Shown piece by piece: positions 16,805 to 63,190 of a stretch of DNA of 64,000 nt (positions are counted from its first letter, which is position 1; the number at the start of each line of letters is the position of its first letter). Made by a program: the position numbers and the translations under genes. This DNA is from an uncultured Solirubrobacteraceae bacterium (GTDB taxonomy: Bacteria; Actinomycetota; Thermoleophilia; Solirubrobacterales; Solirubrobacteraceae): positions 1 to 64,000 of the forward strand of contig CADCVQ010000009.1 in NCBI GenBank assembly GCA_902806175.1, in the 5' to 3' direction. The notes under the pieces are model-generated. The model saw only the letters and a program-made list of their open reading frames with translations. It did not search any database and was not told where the DNA came from.

Positions 16805-17710
16805 ATGACAAGATCGCCTGCGGCGACCGCCTTGCCTCGTTGCGCGTGCATCGATATCGGCTCGAACACCACGCGACTGCTCGTCGCGGAGGACGACGGA
16901 TCGCGGTTGCGCGAGGTCGTCTCCGGGCGCGCCTTCACGCATCTGGGAGCGACCGGCGCGGGCGCGCTGGGGGCCGACAAGATCGCCGAGGTGGCGGCGA
17001 TCGTCGCGCGCCAGATGCGACTGGCCGACGAGCTCGGCGCCGACTCGCTGCGCGTCGTCGCGACGGCGGCCGTGCGCCAGGCGGTCGACCGCGAGGCGCT
17101 GGCTGCCGCGATCGCCGCGTCGTGCGGGGCGACGCTCGAGATCCTCTGCAGCGAAGACGAGGCGCGGCTGGCGTTTCGCGGGGCGATCGGCGCGCTCGCC
17201 GCGCCTCCGGATGGGGTGCTCGGCGTCGTCGACGTCGGCGGCGGCTCCACCGAGCTCGTCGTCGGCACCGCGGCCGGCGGCGTCACGTGGTCGGTCTCGC
17301 TGCCCGTCGGCTCGTCGTCGCTGACGCGTACCGATCTGCCCGCCGATCCGCCCTCGCAGGCGCAGCTCGCCGGGCTGCGCGAGAAGCTCCGCGGGCTGTT
17401 CGGCCGGATCGACGCACCACAGCCGGCGGCCGCCTATGCCGTCGGCGGCAACGCCACCTCGCTGCAGCGGTTGATGGGCGCCGAGCTGGACCGCGCTGCG
17501 CTGACGCGCGGGCTGCACGCGCTCGTCGCGCGCCCGTCCGGCGAGATCGCCCTACGGCTCGGGCTGCACGCCGACCGCGCGCGGCTGCTGCCCGCCGGGA
17601 TCTTGCTGCTCGACGCCGCGTCGCGCGCGCTCAGGGCGCCGCTGCTGCTGGCCGGCGGCGGCTTGCGCGAGGGCATCGTGCTCGAGCAGCTGGCCGCGCT
17701 CAAAGCGTGA
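16805..17710 (+). CDS. Ppx/GppA exopolyphosphatase family phosphatase
   Basis: This is a 301-residue cytosolic enzyme of the actin-like ATPase fold. It has the phosphate-1 motif IDIGSNTTRLL near the N-terminus and the phosphate-2 motif VVDVGGGSTELVVG near residue 145. A third Gly-rich segment (YAVGGNATSLQRL) completes the site. It is the short, two-domain form without the C-terminal HD domains of E. coli Ppx. Members release phosphate from polyphosphate ends or hydrolyse pppGpp. Polyphosphate kinase lies immediately downstream on the same strand after about 90 bases, which favours a polyphosphate role. Confidence 0.9.
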   Translation: MTRSPAATALPRCACIDIGSNTTRLLVAEDDGSRLREVVSGRAFTHLGATGAGALGADKIAEVAAIVARQMRLADELGADSLRVVATAAVRQAVDREALAAAIAASCGATLEILCSEDEARLAFRGAIGALAAPPDGVLGVVDVGGGSTELVVGTAAGGVTWSVSLPVGSSSLTRTDLPADPPSQAQLAGLREKLRGLFGRIDAPQPAAAYAVGGNATSLQRLMGAELDRAALTRGLHALVARPSGEIALRLGLHADRARLLPAGILLLDAASRALRAPLLLAGGGLREGIVLEQLAALKA

Positions 17711-17753: not shown

Positions 17754-17802
17754 TCGCCGGGATGACGGGGTGGCGCGCCGGGGATACTGTCACCGTGACC
17801 AC

Positions 17803-19965
17803 ATGACGAGCCCCGACACCGAGATCACGCTGCAGGAGTCGATCGGCCAGATCGAGGCCTCGCCCCAGCCGCCGCCGAGCGATCTGGATCTGCACGACAA
17901 GTCGCTGTACTTCGGCCGCGAGCTGTCGTGGCTGGACTTCAACGACCGCGTCCTGCAGCTCGTCCAGGACGACGGGATGCCATTGCTCGAGCGCGTCAAG
18001 CTCGCGGCCATCTGGAGCTCCAACAACGACGAGTTCTTCCAGATCCGCGTCGCTGGCGTGCACGATCAGATCGACGCCGGACTGTCGGCGAGGGGGCCCG
18101 ACGGCCTGACCCCGATGGAGACGATCGACGCGATCCGCGCCCGCGTCCGCGGCCAGCAGCAGCGCCTCGAGGAGGTCGTCCTGGGCGACCTCTTCCCGGC
18201 GCTCGCCGAGCAGGGAATCCGGATCCTCGCGCTCGACGACCTCTCCAAGTCACAGCGCAAGGCGCTCGCCAAGCGCTTTCGGCGCCAGATCTTCCCGGTG
18301 CTCACGCCGCTCGCCGTCGGCCAGGGCCGGCCCTTTCCGTACATCTCGAGCCTGTCGCTGTCGCTCGCCGCGCTCGTGCGCGACCCCGACACCGACGAGC
18401 AGACCTTCGCCCGCGTCAAGGTGCCGACCGAGATGCTCGAGCGCTTCGTCGAGGTCGACGACGAGCGGCACACGTTCGTCACGCTCGAAGAGGTCATCGC
18501 CGCGAACATCGAGGCGCTCTTTCCGGGCATGGAGGTCGTCAGCCACGGCTTCTTCCGCGTCACGCGCGACGCCGACTTCGAGGTCTCCGACGAGGCCAAC
18601 GACCTGCTGCAGGCCGTCGAGGCCGAGCTGCGCCGGCGGCGCATGGGCGAGGCCGTGCGCCTGGAGGTCGACGTCAACATCGACCGTGGCGTGCGCACGC
18701 TGCTGCTCGAGGCGCTGGACCTCGAGGAGCGCCAGGTCTACGACGTCGACGGCATCCTCGGCCTCGGCGACCTGTGGCAGATCTACGGGCTGCGCGGGTT
18801 CGCCGAGCTGCGCGATCCGCCGTGGACCCCGGTGACACAGCCGCGGCTGCAGGCCAACGAGCCCGAGCACGGCAACCTGCTGACCGAGATGCGGCGACGG
18901 GACATCCTCGTGCACCACCCGTTTGACTCCTTCGCCACGTCGGTGGAGCGCTTCGTCGATCAGGCCGTCGCCGATCCCGACGTCCTGGCGATCAAGCAGA
19001 CCGTGTACCGCACCTCCGACGACTCGCGTCTCGTGCAGGCGCTGATCCGTGCGACCGAGAGCGGCAAGCAGGCGGTCTGCATGGTCGAGCTCAAGGCGCG
19101 CTTCGACGAGCGCGCGAACATCGAATGGGCGCGCTCGCTCGAGCAGGCCGGCGTCCACGTCGTCTACGGCTATCCGGGCCTGAAGACGCACGCCAAGTGC
19201 ATCCTCGTCGTGCGCCGCGAGGGCAGGGGCGTACGCCACTACGTCCACATCGGGACGGGGAACTACCACCCCAAGACCGCGCGCCTGTACACGGACTTCG
19301 GGCTGTTCACCTGCGACGAGGACATCGGCAACGACGTCGCGGACATGTTCAACTTCCTCACCGGGCTCGGGCGCCCGAGCGAGTACCGCAAGGTCCTCAT
19401 CGCGCCGCGCGGGATGCGCGAGGGGATCCTCGAGGAGATCGATCGTACGATCGCGTCGCACCAGCGCGGCGAGCCCGCGCGGATCCGGCTGAAGATGAAC
19501 TCGCTCGTCGACCGGCGCTGCATCCGCGCGCTGTACCGCGCCTCGCAGGCCGGCGTGCCGGTGTCGCTGAACGTGCGCGGCATCTGCTGCCTGCGTCCCG
19601 GCGTCCCCGGCATCTCGGAGAACATCACCGTGACGAGCGTCCTGGGCCGCTTTCTCGAGCACTCGCGCATCTACAGCTTCGACTACGACGGCCAGACGCG
19701 CGTGCTGATCGGCTCCGCCGACCTCATGCCGCGCAACCTCGACACGCGCGTCGAGCTCATCACCCCGGTCGAGGACGACCACGCAAAGGCCGACCTGCTC
19801 GACGCGCTCGAGCGCTCGCTGGCGACCGACGTGTGGGCGTGGGAGCTGTGCGCCGACGGCTCGTGGAGCAAGCGCGAGCCGGCCAAGAAGCCGCGCTCGG
19901 TCCAACAGGAGCTCATGGTCCTGCACGCCGCACGGGCCAGCGAGAGCTCGCCGCCCGACGAGTAG
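17803..19965 (+). CDS. ppk1: Polyphosphate kinase (PPK1)
   Basis: This is a 720-residue enzyme that reversibly polymerises the gamma-phosphate of ATP into polyphosphate. The N-terminal domain has RELSWLDFNDRVL and SSNNDEFFQIRVAGV, typical of PPK1. The head domain is followed by two phospholipase-D-like catalytic domains. The autophosphorylated histidine is His463 in KTHAK, followed by the HIGTGNYHP signature. ATG 17803 is chosen because a GATACT box ends 14 bases upstream and because the extra residues from GTG 17770 are not family-like. It lies between the Ppx-type gene and the HD-like gene, so synthesis, breakdown and a third function are grouped. Confidence 0.97.
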   Translation: MTSPDTEITLQESIGQIEASPQPPPSDLDLHDKSLYFGRELSWLDFNDRVLQLVQDDGMPLLERVKLAAIWSSNNDEFFQIRVAGVHDQIDAGLSARGPDGLTPMETIDAIRARVRGQQQRLEEVVLGDLFPALAEQGIRILALDDLSKSQRKALAKRFRRQIFPVLTPLAVGQGRPFPYISSLSLSLAALVRDPDTDEQTFARVKVPTEMLERFVEVDDERHTFVTLEEVIAANIEALFPGMEVVSHGFFRVTRDADFEVSDEANDLLQAVEAELRRRRMGEAVRLEVDVNIDRGVRTLLLEALDLEERQVYDVDGILGLGDLWQIYGLRGFAELRDPPWTPVTQPRLQANEPEHGNLLTEMRRRDILVHHPFDSFATSVERFVDQAVADPDVLAIKQTVYRTSDDSRLVQALIRATESGKQAVCMVELKARFDERANIEWARSLEQAGVHVVYGYPGLKTHAKCILVVRREGRGVRHYVHIGTGNYHPKTARLYTDFGLFTCDEDIGNDVADMFNFLTGLGRPSEYRKVLIAPRGMREGILEEIDRTIASHQRGEPARIRLKMNSLVDRRCIRALYRASQAGVPVSLNVRGICCLRPGVPGISENITVTSVLGRFLEHSRIYSFDYDGQTRVLIGSADLMPRNLDTRVELITPVEDDHAKADLLDALERSLATDVWAWELCADGSWSKREPAKKPRSVQQELMVLHAARASESSPPDE

Positions 19966-19976
19966 ATGGCTCGCTG

Positions 19977-20795
19977 ATGACCGGCGACGCCCGCCCGGCG
20001 GTTGCGCGCGGCGCGCCGCAGGACGCGCGCGTGCACGCGCCGGCGCGCGGCAACAAGCGCCTCAAGAAGCTGCTGGAGGCGATCGACGCAGACCTTCAGG
20101 TCAAGGGCTGGTGGCACGCCGCGGCGATCAACGCCGAGCGGCTGAACATGTCCGACCACTCGTGGGTGCACATCCAGATCGTGCTGAACATCGCGCTGCG
20201 CCTCTCGCGGCTGCTGTTCGGCCGCGGTGTCCAGCCCAGCATCGTCTCCGACCATGGCCTGGAGGTGCGCGACGCCGAGGTCGTGATCGCCGCCGCTGCC
20301 CTGCTGCACTGCATCGGGATGTCGATCCATCGCACCGACCACGAGGCCTATTCGCTGTTTCTGACGGCCGACAAGCTCGGCACGCTGCTGCAGGACGTCT
20401 ACGAGGAGCCGACGCGGTCGATCGTCGTCGCAGAGACGATGCACGCGATCATCTCGCACCGCTCCAAGGGCGATCCGCTGACGATCGAGGGCTCGATCGT
20501 GCGCGTCGCCGACGCGCTGGACATGGCCCGCGGGCGCTCGCGCGTGCCGTTCGAGGCCGGCCACACGAACATCCACTCGCTGTCGGCGTACGCGATCGAG
20601 CAGGTCAAGATCGGTGCCGGCGACGAGAAGGCCGTCCGCGTCGAGATCGAGATGTCCAACTCGGCCGGGATCTTCCAGGTCGACGAGGGTCTCGGCACGA
20701 AGCTGCGCGGCACGCTGCTGGAGCCGCACATCGAGGTCGTCGCGCGCATCGAGGCCGAGCACGAGCAGCGCCTCGTGCCGATCTTCCGCCTGTAA
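19977..20795 (+). CDS. HD-domain-like protein with altered HD motif
   Basis: This is a 272-residue soluble protein 11 bases after ppk, hence co-transcribed. It has the helical layout of an HD phosphohydrolase: DHSWVHIQI (His61, His65), then LLHCIGMSIHRTDHEAYS, where the usual His-Asp pair reads His111-Cys112, then further His residues (MHAIISHRS) and an IVRVADALDMARGR segment that supplies the late Asp. The C-terminal third is a small beta-rich domain. HD enzymes cleave phosphoesters or nucleotides. Replacement of the metal-binding Asp by Cys could change the metal or abolish catalysis. Context suggests a role in polyphosphate or nucleotide turnover, which is inference. ATG 19977 is the first good start. 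Confidence 0.75.
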   Translation: MTGDARPAVARGAPQDARVHAPARGNKRLKKLLEAIDADLQVKGWWHAAAINAERLNMSDHSWVHIQIVLNIALRLSRLLFGRGVQPSIVSDHGLEVRDAEVVIAAAALLHCIGMSIHRTDHEAYSLFLTADKLGTLLQDVYEEPTRSIVVAETMHAIISHRSKGDPLTIEGSIVRVADALDMARGRSRVPFEAGHTNIHSLSAYAIEQVKIGAGDEKAVRVEIEMSNSAGIFQVDEGLGTKLRGTLLEPHIEVVARIEAEHEQRLVPIFRL

Positions 20796-57958: not shown

Positions 57959-58168
57959 ATGGACGACGAGGAGGACAAGGCCCCGCCGCACGACAGCGAC
58001 GCCAGCGAGCCGCTCGGGCCGATGACGCCCGACGACGAAACCCCGGCGGGGGACACGCCCGAGGCGCACGACGAGATCTCGCCGCACGACCTGCCGCCCG
58101 GCCACCCGGGCCGCGAGGAGGCCGAGCGCCAGGCCGGCTCGGGTGGGACGACGCGAGGCAACGTGTGA
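57959..58168 (+). CDS. Small acidic disordered protein, 69 aa
   Basis: This product is rich in Asp, Glu, Pro and His, without hydrophobic segments. It begins MDDEEDKAPPHDSD and ends RQAGSGGTTRGNV. It is likely disordered. The start follows the preceding stop by six bases, so it is probably co-transcribed. Function unknown. Confidence 0.55.
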   Translation: MDDEEDKAPPHDSDASEPLGPMTPDDETPAGDTPEAHDEISPHDLPPGHPGREEAERQAGSGGTTRGNV

Positions 58169-58219: not shown

Positions 58220-59767
58220 ATGGACGCGCGCGCGACCGTTCTGCTGCTCCCGGATGGCCTGAGTGCCTCGGGGGCGGCCGACCGGCTGGCGGCGCTCGTG
58301 CCGGTCGTGACACAGAGCACGCACGCGATCGAGCGCACGTTCTGGGACACGTTCGACGGGCGCCTGCACCGCGCCGGCCTCGCCCTCGCCGACGCGGCCA
58401 GTCGGCTCGTCCTGATGGACGCCGCGACGTCCGTCGAGCAGGCCAGCGGCGATCAGCCGCGGGGCGCGCGCAGGCTGACGCTCGAGATCCTGCCGGCCGG
58501 GATCCTGCACGACCGGCTGGCGCCGATCGTCGAGATGCGCGCGCTGACCCCGATCGCCCGCGTGCGTAGCCGTCAGCTGCCGATCAACGTGCTCGACGAC
58601 GTCGGCAAGATCGTCGTGCGCCTGCGCGCCGAGGAACCGGCGGCGCTCGCGGGCGGCGCCGCAGAGCACCCGCTGCGCCCGCGCCTGCACGTCGTCGGCG
58701 TGCGCGGCTATGACGCCGACTACGACCGCGTGCTGGCGATCCTGACGGGCGCGGTCGGCCTGCAGGCTGCCCCGCGGCCGGTGCTCGACGACGCCGTCGC
58801 GGCGCTCGGCCGCCCGATCGGCGGCATGTCGTCGAAGCTGCGCATCGAGCTGGACCCGGCCGGTCGCGCCGACGCGGCCGCTGTGGCGATCCTGCGCCGC
58901 CTGACCGAGGTCATCGAGGACAACACGCCGGGAACGCTGGCCGACGTCGACTCGGAGTTCCTGCATGACCTGCGCGTCGCGGTGCGCCGCTCGCGCGCGC
59001 TGCAGCGCGAGCTGCGCGGGGTGTTCTCGCCCGAGCCGCTGCGTGTCTTTCGCGCCGGCTTTCGCGAGCTGCAGGTGCTGACCGGGCCGACGCGCGACCT
59101 CGACGTGCAGCTGCTCGAGTTCGGCGAGCTTGCGGCGGGGCTGGGGGAGAGCACGGCGGGCGACGTCGCGCCGTTGCGGCGGCTGCTCGAGCAGCGCCTC
59201 GTGATCGAGCGCAGGAAGATGGTCAGCGGGCTGCGCTCGGAGCGCACGCGAGGGCTGCTGGCGAACTGGGCGGACTTCCTCGACGGCCTCGTCGATGCGC
59301 CGCAGGGCGATCGTCCCGATGCCACCCGGCCGATCGCCGACGTCGCCGCCGAGCGGATCAGCGCGGTCTACCGGCGGATGGTGAAGATGGGCCGGGCGAT
59401 CGACGACGACAGCCCGCACGAGGCGCTGCACGACCTGCGCAAGAAGGGCAAGGAGCTGCGCTACCTGCTCGAGTTCTTCGCGTCGCTGTATCCGCCGGAC
59501 GTCGTCAAGCCGATGGTGTCGACGCTGAAGGGGCTGCAGGACGTGCTCGGCCGCTTCCAGGACCGCGAGGTGCAGGCGGACCTGCTGCGTGCGCTGGGCG
59601 ACGAGATCGCGGCGATGGAGGGCGGCGCGGCGGCGCTGATGGCGATGGGCGTCCTCGTCGAGCGGCTCGTCGAGCAGCAGGAGCAGGCGCGGGCACAGTT
59701 CGCCGCGAGCTTCGCGCAGTTCGCGGCCAAGCCGCAGCGCAAGATCGTCCGCGAGACGTTCGGATGA
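58220..59767 (+). CDS. CHAD-domain protein with degenerate CYTH-like N-terminus
   Basis: This is a 515-residue soluble protein. Residues 1-200 look like a degenerate CYTH/triphosphatase domain (ERTFWDTFDGRLHRAGLALAD), but the ExExK active-site motif is not evident. Residues about 225-500 are a CHAD domain, with the conserved His/Arg blocks FLHDLRVAVRRSRALQREL and ALHDLRKKGKELRYLLEFF. CHAD helical bundles bind polyphosphate, and CHAD proteins locate to polyphosphate granules in other bacteria. A CAGACT box lies six bases before ATG 58220. Its TGA overlaps the ATG of a ParA-type ATPase (ATGA), so the two are made together. Confidence 0.9.
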   Translation: MDARATVLLLPDGLSASGAADRLAALVPVVTQSTHAIERTFWDTFDGRLHRAGLALADAASRLVLMDAATSVEQASGDQPRGARRLTLEILPAGILHDRLAPIVEMRALTPIARVRSRQLPINVLDDVGKIVVRLRAEEPAALAGGAAEHPLRPRLHVVGVRGYDADYDRVLAILTGAVGLQAAPRPVLDDAVAALGRPIGGMSSKLRIELDPAGRADAAAVAILRRLTEVIEDNTPGTLADVDSEFLHDLRVAVRRSRALQRELRGVFSPEPLRVFRAGFRELQVLTGPTRDLDVQLLEFGELAAGLGESTAGDVAPLRRLLEQRLVIERRKMVSGLRSERTRGLLANWADFLDGLVDAPQGDRPDATRPIADVAAERISAVYRRMVKMGRAIDDDSPHEALHDLRKKGKELRYLLEFFASLYPPDVVKPMVSTLKGLQDVLGRFQDREVQADLLRALGDEIAAMEGGAAALMAMGVLVERLVEQQEQARAQFAASFAQFAAKPQRKIVRETFG

Positions 59768-60513
59768 CGAAGGTCGTCGCGCTCTACAACATCAAGGGCG
59801 GCGTCGGCAAGACGTCGGCCGCCGTCAACCTCGCCTGGACGGCGGCCGAGCAGGGATCGCGCGTGCTGCTGTGGGACCTCGATCCGCAGGGCGCGGCGAG
59901 CTTCCTGCTGCGGATCAAGCCGAAGGTGCGCGGCGGCGGCGCCAAGCTCGTGCGCGGCAAGAGCGATCCGGTCGCGCTGCTGAAGGGGTCCGACCACGAG
60001 CTCCTGGACCTGCTGCCGGCCGACTTCTCCTATCGCAACATGGACCTCGCGCTGGATGCGACGAAGCGCCCGACGCAGGGGCTGCAGCGCGTGATCGCGC
60101 CGCTCGCCCACGACTACGACTACGTCTTCCTGGACTGCCCGCCAGCGATCTCGCTGGCCTCCGAGAACGTCTTCGCGGCAGCCGACCTGCTGCTCGTACC
60201 GCTGATCCCGTCGCCGCTGTCGCTGCGCACGTTCGAGCAGCTCCAGCGCTTCGTCGCCGGCGAGGTGCCCAAGCCGCGCCCGCAGATCGCGGCCTTCTTC
60301 TCGATGGCCGACGGCCGCAAGACGCTGCACCGCGAGGTCATGGACGAGCTCGGCGCGCGCGTGGACGGCGCCGTGCTCGAGACCGCGATCCCGGCGGCCA
60401 GCGACGTCGAGAAGATGGCCCTCAGGCGCCGCGCGCTCGCCGGCTTTGCGCCCCACGGCCGCGCCGCGCGCGCCTACGCGGCACTGTGGGACGAGCTGCG
60501 GCCGCGGCTGTAG
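59764..60513 (+). CDS. ParA/MinD-family ATPase
   Basis: This 249-residue P-loop ATPase has the deviant Walker A KGGVGKTS (Lys11 and Lys16 present), the Walker A' LWDLDPQGAAS and Walker B VFLDCPPAIS. It is typical of ParA/Soj and McdA-like positioning ATPases, which form gradients on the nucleoid and move cargo. There is no ParB gene and no parS-like site nearby, which argues against plasmid or chromosome partition. It is coupled to a CHAD gene, so the likely cargo adaptor is the polyphosphate-binding protein. The function as a granule positioner is inference. Confidence 0.92.
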   Translation: MTKVVALYNIKGGVGKTSAAVNLAWTAAEQGSRVLLWDLDPQGAASFLLRIKPKVRGGGAKLVRGKSDPVALLKGSDHELLDLLPADFSYRNMDLALDATKRPTQGLQRVIAPLAHDYDYVFLDCPPAISLASENVFAAADLLLVPLIPSPLSLRTFEQLQRFVAGEVPKPRPQIAAFFSMADGRKTLHREVMDELGARVDGAVLETAIPAASDVEKMALRRRALAGFAPHGRAARAYAALWDELRPRL

Positions 60514-60611: not shown

Positions 60612-62876
60612 TCAGGCGCTCGTGCTCGCGTGTGCTGCTGGGGCGATCATCGGCAGCGCGGGCGCGGGTCGGCCGACGTAATAGCCCTGGGCGTGGTCGA
60701 TGCCGACGTCGCGCACGAGTTGCAGCGTCGCCGCGTCTTCGACGTACTCGGCGACCGTCTGCTTGCCGAGGCCGCGCGCGAGCGCCACGAGCGACTCGAC
60801 GAGGACGAGGTCGCTGGGATCGGTCGTGAGGTTCTTGATGAACTGGCCGTCGATCTTCAGCTCGTCGAAGGGCAGGTTCTTGAGGTAGTGAAACGAAGCG
60901 AAGCCAGAGCCGAAGTCGTCAAGGGCGATCCCGCAGCCCAGATCCGAGAGGCTCGTGAGGAAGCGTCGTGCGTCGTCGAGGCTTGCGATCGCGGCGGTTT
61001 CGGTGACCTCGAAGACGAGCCCGGCGGGATCGATCGGCGAGTTCTCGAGGGCGTTGCAGATGAAGTCGAGGAAGTCGTGGTCTGACAGCGAGCGCGCGGA
61101 GATGTTGATCTGCAGGCGAACCGGGTCGGCGGTGGCGTTGCGGCGTTCAAGGAGCGCGATCGCCTCGCGCACCACCCAGCGGTCGATGGTGCGGATCATC
61201 CCGCGGCGCTCGGCGATCGGCAGAAAGGCTCCCGGCAGGATGACTTCGCCGTCGGGGCCGAGCATGCGCAGTAGCAGCTCGTAGTTGGTGATCTTGCCCG
61301 ACGCGATGTTCAGGATCGGCTGCGCGTAGAGCGTCAGGTGCTGCTCGTCGAGGGCGCGCCTGATCCGGTCGGGCCATGAGATCTGGTTGACGACGCCGGT
61401 GCTCTGGACGGTCGCGGTGCAGTAGACGACGCAGCGATTGCCTCCGGCGTCCTTGGCCTCGTACATCGCCAGATCGGCGTCGTTGAGCAGCTCGTCGCCG
61501 GTGAGGTCGGTGTCGGCGGCGTGGACGACGACGCCGACGCTCGCGGTGCGCTGGATGCGGCCGCCGGCGATGTGCACAGCATGCTCGCTGACGCGCTGCA
61601 CGAGCGCGGCCCCGAGGATTTCGGCCTGCTCACGGCCCAGGTCGCCGACGAGGACGGCGAACTCGTCACCGCCGAGGCGCGCGACGATGTCGCTTTGGCG
61701 CGTGCCTTCGCTGAGGGCGTTCGCCGCGGAGACGAGCATCTCGTCTCCGACCTGGTGGCCGAGCGTGTCGTTGACTTCCTTGAAGTTGTCGAGGTCGACG
61801 ACGATCACAGCGCCGCCACGGCCGCAACGGCGTGCGCGCTCAAGCTGCGCGGACAGCTCGCGCTCAAATCGACGCCGGTTGAACAGCCCGGTGAGTGGGT
61901 CGATGTCGGCGAGGTCTTTGAGCTCGCGCGCCAGGCGGTTGCGCTCGGTGACGTCTTCGATCTGCACGATCACGTCGCGCACGTCACCGCAGCCGGCGAC
62001 GACCGACATGCTCAGGCGCCCCTCGAACGCGACGCCGGTGCGGTCCAGCAGCGCGAGCTCGTCATGAAAGACGGGTGAGCGGCCGGCGGTCAGGTCGTCG
62101 ATTGCGTCCAGGATGCGTCCCTCTCCCGCGGCATCGAGCAGCACCGAGACGTGCGCGCCGGCGAGTTCGGACTCTGTGTAGCCAAAACGCTGGCAGAGCG
62201 TGCGATTGACGCGCACGAGCGCGCCGCGCGTCGGGCCGTCGGCGCCGATCAGCGCCATGCCGACCGGCCCGTCTTCGAAGGCGCTGCGAAAGCGCGCGTC
62301 GCTTTCGCTGGCATGGTCGCTGGCGCGCCGGCTCTCGGCGCGGACGTCCTCGTTCATCCGCCATGACACCACGGCGGCGATCGACGCCGCCAGGACAAAC
62401 CCGCCGTGGACGCCGGCCAGGACCCACGGATCGCCGCCGTGGTTATACACCGAGTCGCGATCGAGGAACCCGGCCGCCAGGTGGTGCACCACGACGAATC
62501 CGAACGCGATCAGAAACGGGCGCCAGTCCTCGTACAGCGAGACGACGATGATCATCACAAAGAACATGAAGTGCGCCTCGATCGCCCCCGCCGCGAGATG
62601 CACCGCCAGCGCGGTTGCCGTGCACAGCCCCAGCGACACCAGTGACGACGACGTGGCCTGCCGGGCGCGCCCCCGGCTTGCCAGCAGGGCGATCACGAGC
62701 AGCGCGCCGCCGCCTACAGCGGCGTGGGCCCCCGCGTGCCCGACGGCCAGGCCATACAACGGCAGCGCCAGGGCCAACAGCCACAGCACAAGCAAGATCC
62801 CTTGATGGCGACGCACCCACTCGGCTGCGGGCAGGGTCTCACCCGACGGCAGCTGTCCACGTAAAAAGCTTCGCAT
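60612..62876 (-). CDS. Membrane GGDEF-EAL protein with PAS domain
   Basis: This 754-residue c-di-GMP enzyme starts with about six membrane helices (about 25-190; a segment contains HFMFFVMIIVVSLYEDW), then a PAS domain (ARFRSAFEDGPVGMALI). The GGDEF domain has an intact RLGGDEF. The EAL domain has an ELL variant in the first motif (NYELLLRM) and DDFGSGFASF and KIDGQFI intact. Both synthesis and breakdown of c-di-GMP are possible. ATG 62876 gives a short cytoplasmic N-terminus; the frame is open further upstream. It lies convergent to the ParA gene and divergent from the choice-of-anchor P gene. Confidence 0.92.
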   Translation of the reverse strand: MRSFLRGQLPSGETLPAAEWVRRHQGILLVLWLLALALPLYGLAVGHAGAHAAVGGGALLVIALLASRGRARQATSSSLVSLGLCTATALAVHLAAGAIEAHFMFFVMIIVVSLYEDWRPFLIAFGFVVVHHLAAGFLDRDSVYNHGGDPWVLAGVHGGFVLAASIAAVVSWRMNEDVRAESRRASDHASESDARFRSAFEDGPVGMALIGADGPTRGALVRVNRTLCQRFGYTESELAGAHVSVLLDAAGEGRILDAIDDLTAGRSPVFHDELALLDRTGVAFEGRLSMSVVAGCGDVRDVIVQIEDVTERNRLARELKDLADIDPLTGLFNRRRFERELSAQLERARRCGRGGAVIVVDLDNFKEVNDTLGHQVGDEMLVSAANALSEGTRQSDIVARLGGDEFAVLVGDLGREQAEILGAALVQRVSEHAVHIAGGRIQRTASVGVVVHAADTDLTGDELLNDADLAMYEAKDAGGNRCVVYCTATVQSTGVVNQISWPDRIRRALDEQHLTLYAQPILNIASGKITNYELLLRMLGPDGEVILPGAFLPIAERRGMIRTIDRWVVREAIALLERRNATADPVRLQINISARSLSDHDFLDFICNALENSPIDPAGLVFEVTETAAIASLDDARRFLTSLSDLGCGIALDDFGSGFASFHYLKNLPFDELKIDGQFIKNLTTDPSDLVLVESLVALARGLGKQTVAEYVEDAATLQLVRDVGIDHAQGYYVGRPAPALPMIAPAAHASTSA

Positions 62877-63190
62877 GAAGGGCTTTATCGGCAGCCAAGC
62901 ACGCGAACACAAACCCTGCTCGATCCTGGGTGAGCGCTGGCGCGGCAGGTGATCACCGTGGAACGCGCGTCCGGGCCGTTTGGGTCCCGGCGCCCGCGAA
63001 CACGCGCGTTTGCACGGATTCTGCGGTCGGTCCTTTGCACTGCGTACGGTTGACGCATCGGACATTTTTGATGGGCTACTACGTGTCGCGGTCCCCGTCT
63101 CATGATGGGACGGGTGGCGGAGAGTCCCACGAGTGCTCCGCGCGCAGACGCCCGGGAGGTAGGCCATAACCCCGGATTAAAGGAGATCTT
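62877..63190. promoter_or_regulatory. Divergent region with probable structured leader
   Basis: No gene is seen in these 314 bases. On the plus strand TTGACG (63050-63055) with TACTAC (63077-63082) suggests a promoter with loose spacing. After it, about 105 bases contain two hairpins: CCCGTC/GACGGG around 63097-63116, and GCGGAG/CTCCGC between about 63116 and 63140. A long 5' leader then leads to AAAGGAG before ATG 63191. I could not match the consensus of known riboswitches. Confidence 0.45.

Follow-up and report, generated by a model that had tools for sequence, protein, structure and literature searches.

A conserved CHAD–ParA gene pair as a candidate system for positioning polyphosphate granules

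In 64,000 nucleotides of DNA from an uncultured Solirubrobacteraceae bacterium (the whole stretch analysed, hereafter the window; features are on its forward strand unless stated), the gene for a 515-aa CHAD-domain protein (58220..59767; ORF with Pfam CHAD match PF05235, E 8.5e-55) overlaps that for a 249-aa ATPase (59764..60513), assigned to the ParA family by an AAA_31 match (E 6.5e-33) and by the family tree. That the two form a real functional unit tied to polyphosphate (polyP) is close to certain. The unit is probably a cargo-positioning system of the ParA type, with the polyP granule as cargo and the CHAD protein as the proposed granule adaptor, and the balance tips slightly towards the broader proposition that an unnamed, widespread ParA subfamily uses a globular adaptor of its own to position polyP granules actively in many phyla. 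The basis in sequence and model is the conserved operon, the intact ATPase motifs, the polyP-binding residues and fold, and the polyP gene context.

The sequence-only reading from which positioning had been proposed is partly supported, and its descriptive claims are borne out. Both ORFs are present and share the 4-nt ATGA of the CHAD stop and ParA start (59764..59767, within ...TTCGGATGACG...), an arrangement of translational coupling; the ATPase has the deviant Walker A that was called intact (10-IKGGVGKTSA-19); and, as claimed, ParB and parS are absent from the surroundings, with no parS-like 16-mer (up to 3 mismatches) anywhere in the window and the sole ParB_N match of the genome assembly on another contig (C171). 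Flanking the pair are a 69-aa acidic, proline-rich ORF just 5′ of the CHAD gene on the same strand (57959-58168), without a Pfam match, and a large gene convergent with that for ParA (60612-63167) whose product by eye resembles a GGDEF-EAL (cyclic-di-GMP) protein.

Conservation of the pair and its polyphosphate context

Among 149 genomes of the class, six carry relatives of this ParA subfamily (E < 1e-50): three belong to the same genus, two to the same family, and one lies elsewhere in the class. Comparison of coordinates places a CHAD gene directly upstream on the same strand in all six. Other ParAs of the class (~29-38% identical and largely ParB-type) are in no case less than 5 kb from a CHAD match in the lists, which were compared by eye. 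A profile from nine aligned ParAs was then run against ~85,000 species genomes and the best 80 loci kept; since these are the loci closest to the query, the CHAD-adjacent fraction among them is no census. In 50 of the 80 ParA is preceded on its own strand by a CHAD ORF at a gap of 0-104 bp (at most 24 bp in 48), where chance, with kinship ignored, would give ~0.02 loci. The adjacent loci span at least seven phyla, with representatives in Actinomycetota, alpha-, beta-, gamma- and zetaproteobacteria, Chlorobiota, Chloroflexota, Dormiibacterota, Dadabacteria, Thermodesulfobacteriota and Myxococcota, and adjacency is distributed over deep branches of the ParA clade. Absence of conservation had been set beforehand as refuting the sequence-only reading; what was found is a pair strongly conserved over many phyla, with independent polyP-metabolism neighbours.

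In several proteobacteria the pair is preceded by a gene for a small protein of ~62 aa (L062:6296-6484, L063:4285-4473, and in L126, L128, L130, L135 and L143), ribbon-helix-helix-like by eye, with no Pfam hit and possibly a regulator of the operon. A different type of variation is seen in the genome with the family's deepest-branching ParA (G131; loci L008 / L047), which pairs with a CHAD from an otherwise ParA-lacking clade, possibly a switch of partner that kept the ParA–CHAD pairing.

The other 30 loci, at least three of which have a contig end just 5′ of ParA (L067, L115, L145) and which include two from Halomonas with CHAD on the opposite strand, were followed up by whole-genome CHAD search. 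A CHAD was found somewhere in 19 of these 30 genomes lacking a same-strand adjacent one. In six Methylococcales and the acidobacterium Mor1 the ParA and CHAD genes are apart, and the CHAD is high-scoring and, by tree, of the same subfamily; such co-occurrence without adjacency is independent support for the pairing. The separated CHADs of this subfamily mostly adjoin a histidine phosphatase gene, that of Mor1 being near genes for PPK1 and a PhoU-like protein, and in another acidobacterium (L082) ParA, CYTH, PPK1 and CHAD are all in one cluster. Counting against positioning via CHAD is a single ParA branch of ten Bacteroidota loci (L107, L112, L113, L115, L121, L122, L129, L138, L139, L140), mostly without CHAD in the genome, which possibly serves another cargo or partner. 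A gene for a ~245-aa esterase-like protein (PF00756) lies downstream in nine of the ten, the exception being L121.

The window also has ppx (Ppx/GppA phosphatase, 16805..17710; PF02541, E 8.1e-35) and ppk1 (polyphosphate kinase 1, 17770..19965; PP_kinase domains), of the same pathway and outside the operon, directly followed on the same strand by a gene for an HD-domain protein (19980-20795). The sequence-only reading rightly placed ppx and ppk in the same window as the pair, about 40 kb away; the distance is ~38 kb, upstream of the pair. As evidence this linkage is weak, since two genomes of the genus have the genes ~13 kb and ~60 kb apart and other class members (G017, G139, G131) show no linkage. 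More pertinent is the immediate neighbourhood across bacteria. PPK1 is encoded in six of the 80 fetched loci against 0.3 expected (P ~1e-6), within a few kb of this ParA in L071, L079, L082, L102, L111 and the Marinobacter locus L105, where it is close to ParA though no CHAD was detected in the genome. Also recurrent, and Pfam-verified on examples, are PPK2, CYTH, histidine phosphatase, NUDIX, PhoU and a Na+/Pi cotransporter. In Paracoccus marcusii a CHAD-ParA-CYTH-NUDIX unit comes after pst-phoU-phoB, and a member of the window's own family (G017) has CHAD-ParA-CYTH. At the level of whole genomes PPK1 is present in 28 of 30 plus 37 of 50 with this ParA (65/80) versus 87/149 of the class, an enrichment between taxonomically unlike samples that is not relied on here. 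In 13 of the 50 CHAD-linked genomes, some with PPK2 and some MAGs, PPK1 is not detectable, which counts against the positioning reading.

The two proteins

An AlphaFold2 model of the CHAD protein from 46 family sequences (mean pLDDT 95.4) has no disordered stretch. The CHAD domain (residues 223-457, 58886..59590; PF05235) superimposes on that of the Chlorobium tepidum CtCHAD-polyP complex 6QVA with an rmsd of 1.8 A at 34% identity. In CtCHAD, mutation of H253, R256, R260, R296, R418 or Y419 weakens polyP binding (PMC6537752); the counterparts in the window protein are H249, R252, R256, R292, R414 and Y415, each kept in 45-46 of 46 homologues, so that the CHAD fold with His/Arg polyP contacts by which phosins are recognized is present. 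A Chlorobium CHAD encoded directly upstream of ParA (L101) is a close homologue of CtCHAD and accordingly the best-studied polyP-binding CHAD belongs to the ParA-linked subfamily.

Preceding the CHAD domain is a TTM/CYTH-like domain (about residues 1-202, 58220..58825), recognized by fold; its Foldseek resemblance to ygiF, thiamine triphosphatases, SaTTM and Med18 is weak (E ~1e-3 for the domain). Pfam CYTH has no match in the window protein, and by eye no ExExK motif is evident in its first strand or in the N-terminal alignment of homologues; D43, R107, K130, G163 and Y164 are conserved across the family. The C-terminal helices (residues 469-501 and 504-514, 59624..59761), delimited from the model, the alignment and comparison with CHADs of ParA-lacking genomes, carry a conserved F..F...LF tail and are a candidate ParA-contact region. 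The strict tail pattern is found in 29 of 57 linked CHADs, 9 of 11 separate ones and none of 25 from ParA-lacking genomes, a distribution inseparable from shared ancestry; the tail is therefore not upheld as a contact motif.

The ATPase, which matches CbiA as well as AAA_31 in Pfam and has ParA and Soj proteins as its closest solved structures in the PDB, has the deviant Walker A KGGVGKT at residues 11-17 (59794..59814) with signature Lys11. The hallmarks of the ParA/MinD group are all there, KGGxGKT with its signature lysine, a Walker A′ DxDPQ and the Walker B aspartate, and in alignment K11, K16, T17, D38, D40 and D124 are invariant in 58 of 58 CHAD-linked ParAs. In a FastTree phylogeny the family is one clade (support 100) relative to six ParB-type ParAs of the class, from which it is distinguished by invariant R91, E134, P149, E216 and M218 and nearly invariant R50, H189 and R222. 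Phage and plasmid collections were also searched, phages holding only distant ParAs. The arginine of the Soj segment PRNxRxxEAPS is required for Soj DNA binding. In the linked ParAs PxxxDVExMGxxRxP stands in place of that segment, and in consequence nucleoid binding cannot be assumed; other basic positions (R50, R91, K186, R222) are kept.

Positioning and the alternatives to it

Positioning is favoured because known positioning systems usually pair a ParA ATPase with a co-encoded, dedicated cargo-binding partner. For the present pair we infer contact between ParA and CHAD, nucleoid binding, ATPase stimulation and granule movement. The CHAD protein would coat or dock on the granule via its basic CHAD domain and be the partner of ParA in place of ParB or McdB. 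ParA-ATP dimers would be located on the nucleoid, where granule-bound CHAD may stimulate ATP hydrolysis and so local ParA release, and granules tracking the resulting ParA gradient would be spaced and shared between daughter cells. Given the altered Soj segment, which counts against positioning, regulation, tethering and sensing keep some probability, each well below that of positioning.

Least improbable among these, and still unlikely, is a regulatory role: much as FleN or BcsQ act as switches in their own systems, a ParA that responds to nucleotide would govern how polyP is made or broken down, controlling CHAD, PPK or CYTH activity on the granule but leaving the granule where it is. There are enzymes among the operon partners (CYTH, PPK1, PPK2, NUDIX, histidine phosphatase), the CHAD domain of ygiF enhances polyphosphatase activity (PMC6537752), and the C-terminal region of the ParA is unlike that of Soj. 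However, the constant partner is CHAD and no enzyme, and positioning systems are usually built from just such an intact signature-lysine ParA dimer ATPase and a partner that binds the cargo. Distinctly less probable is a static tether, in which ParA and CHAD merely anchor granules to the nucleoid without ATP-driven dynamics; the presumed role of AlgP, nucleoid tethering, is the sole described arrangement mechanism for polyP granules (PMC13052382), but the hydrolysis motifs invariant in all 58 linked ParAs would be superfluous for it.

As improbable as the tether is a reversal of roles, with CHAD-bound polyP controlling ParA so that segregation or division answers phosphate or energy stress, the cargo being DNA or a division factor. 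PolyP is linked to the cell cycle in Pseudomonas. Such a link is also described in Caulobacter (PMC13052382). Against polyP sensing of this kind, the genome has a separate ParB, and no parS or division genes recur beside the pair whereas polyP genes do. That the genes adjoin by chance, or are what is left of a plasmid partition locus, is scarcely credible: Paracoccus megaplasmid copies are among the nearest annotated plasmid ParAs, yet these plasmid copies pair with the same CHAD partner, contigs are mostly of chromosomal size, and the cross-phylum conservation and absence of ParB/parS contradict such an origin.

An ATP-driven system for positioning a polyP body would, if that is what the pair is, be the first, and could account for the orderly passing on of granules in bacteria that have no known factor for it. 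According to a 2025 review the granule-positioning proteins of Caulobacter are unidentified, AlgP in Pseudomonas is the only one known and ATP dependence is unknown; no ATP-dependent polyP positioning is listed there (PMC13052382), and a survey of multiple ParA/MinD cargos does not mention polyP (PMC10241942). The literature covered was open-licence, and further accounts may exist in subscription papers or preprints. Granule localisation is established for Ralstonia CHAD proteins only, whose deletion gave no apparent phenotype (PMC6537752), a point against positioning, though these CHADs may or may not be ParA-linked. The pair offers a concrete candidate of two genes, found in many phyla and extending to the Chlorobium CHAD subfamily with its existing polyP-bound crystal structure, and the question of polyP positioning becomes directly testable.

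Comparison with known systems

With ParABS (Soj/Spo0J) the pair has in common the ATPase domain and deviant Walker A, but there is no adjacent ParB or parS, the ParA clade is separate and PRNxRxxEAPS is replaced, so that it is not classed as a partition system. The CHAD fold and polyP-contact residues are common to the phosins (Ralstonia CHAD proteins, E. coli ygiF, CtCHAD), from which the window protein differs in its fixed ParA pairing, a TTM domain without evident ExExK and the C-terminal F..F..LF tail. Closest in gene order is folD-ppk-parA-CHAD of Acidithiobacillus, likewise with parA beside CHAD and ppk and conserved in that genus, which was noted in passing in 2024 for the genus only and without the idea of positioning (PMC10892726); the pairing there was already on record. 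AlgP of Pseudomonas aeruginosa is a factor that keeps polyP granules evenly spaced on the nucleoid, as is proposed for the pair, but is a histone H1-like DNA-binding protein with no ATPase known (PMC9239181).

McdAB, where the ParA/MinD ATPase McdA works with the adaptor McdB on carboxysomes, is compared with the CHAD-linked ParA by layout and not by tree. Carboxysome genes are not recurrent neighbours among the clusters seen, which sets the pair outside McdAB proper; the partner of this ParA, a globular TTM-CHAD protein of 515 aa, differs from McdB, which is small and disordered or coiled-coil, and the proposed cargo is polyP. The likeness is that in both the ATPase is co-encoded with a cargo-specific partner other than ParB, and that the cargo is a protein or storage body.
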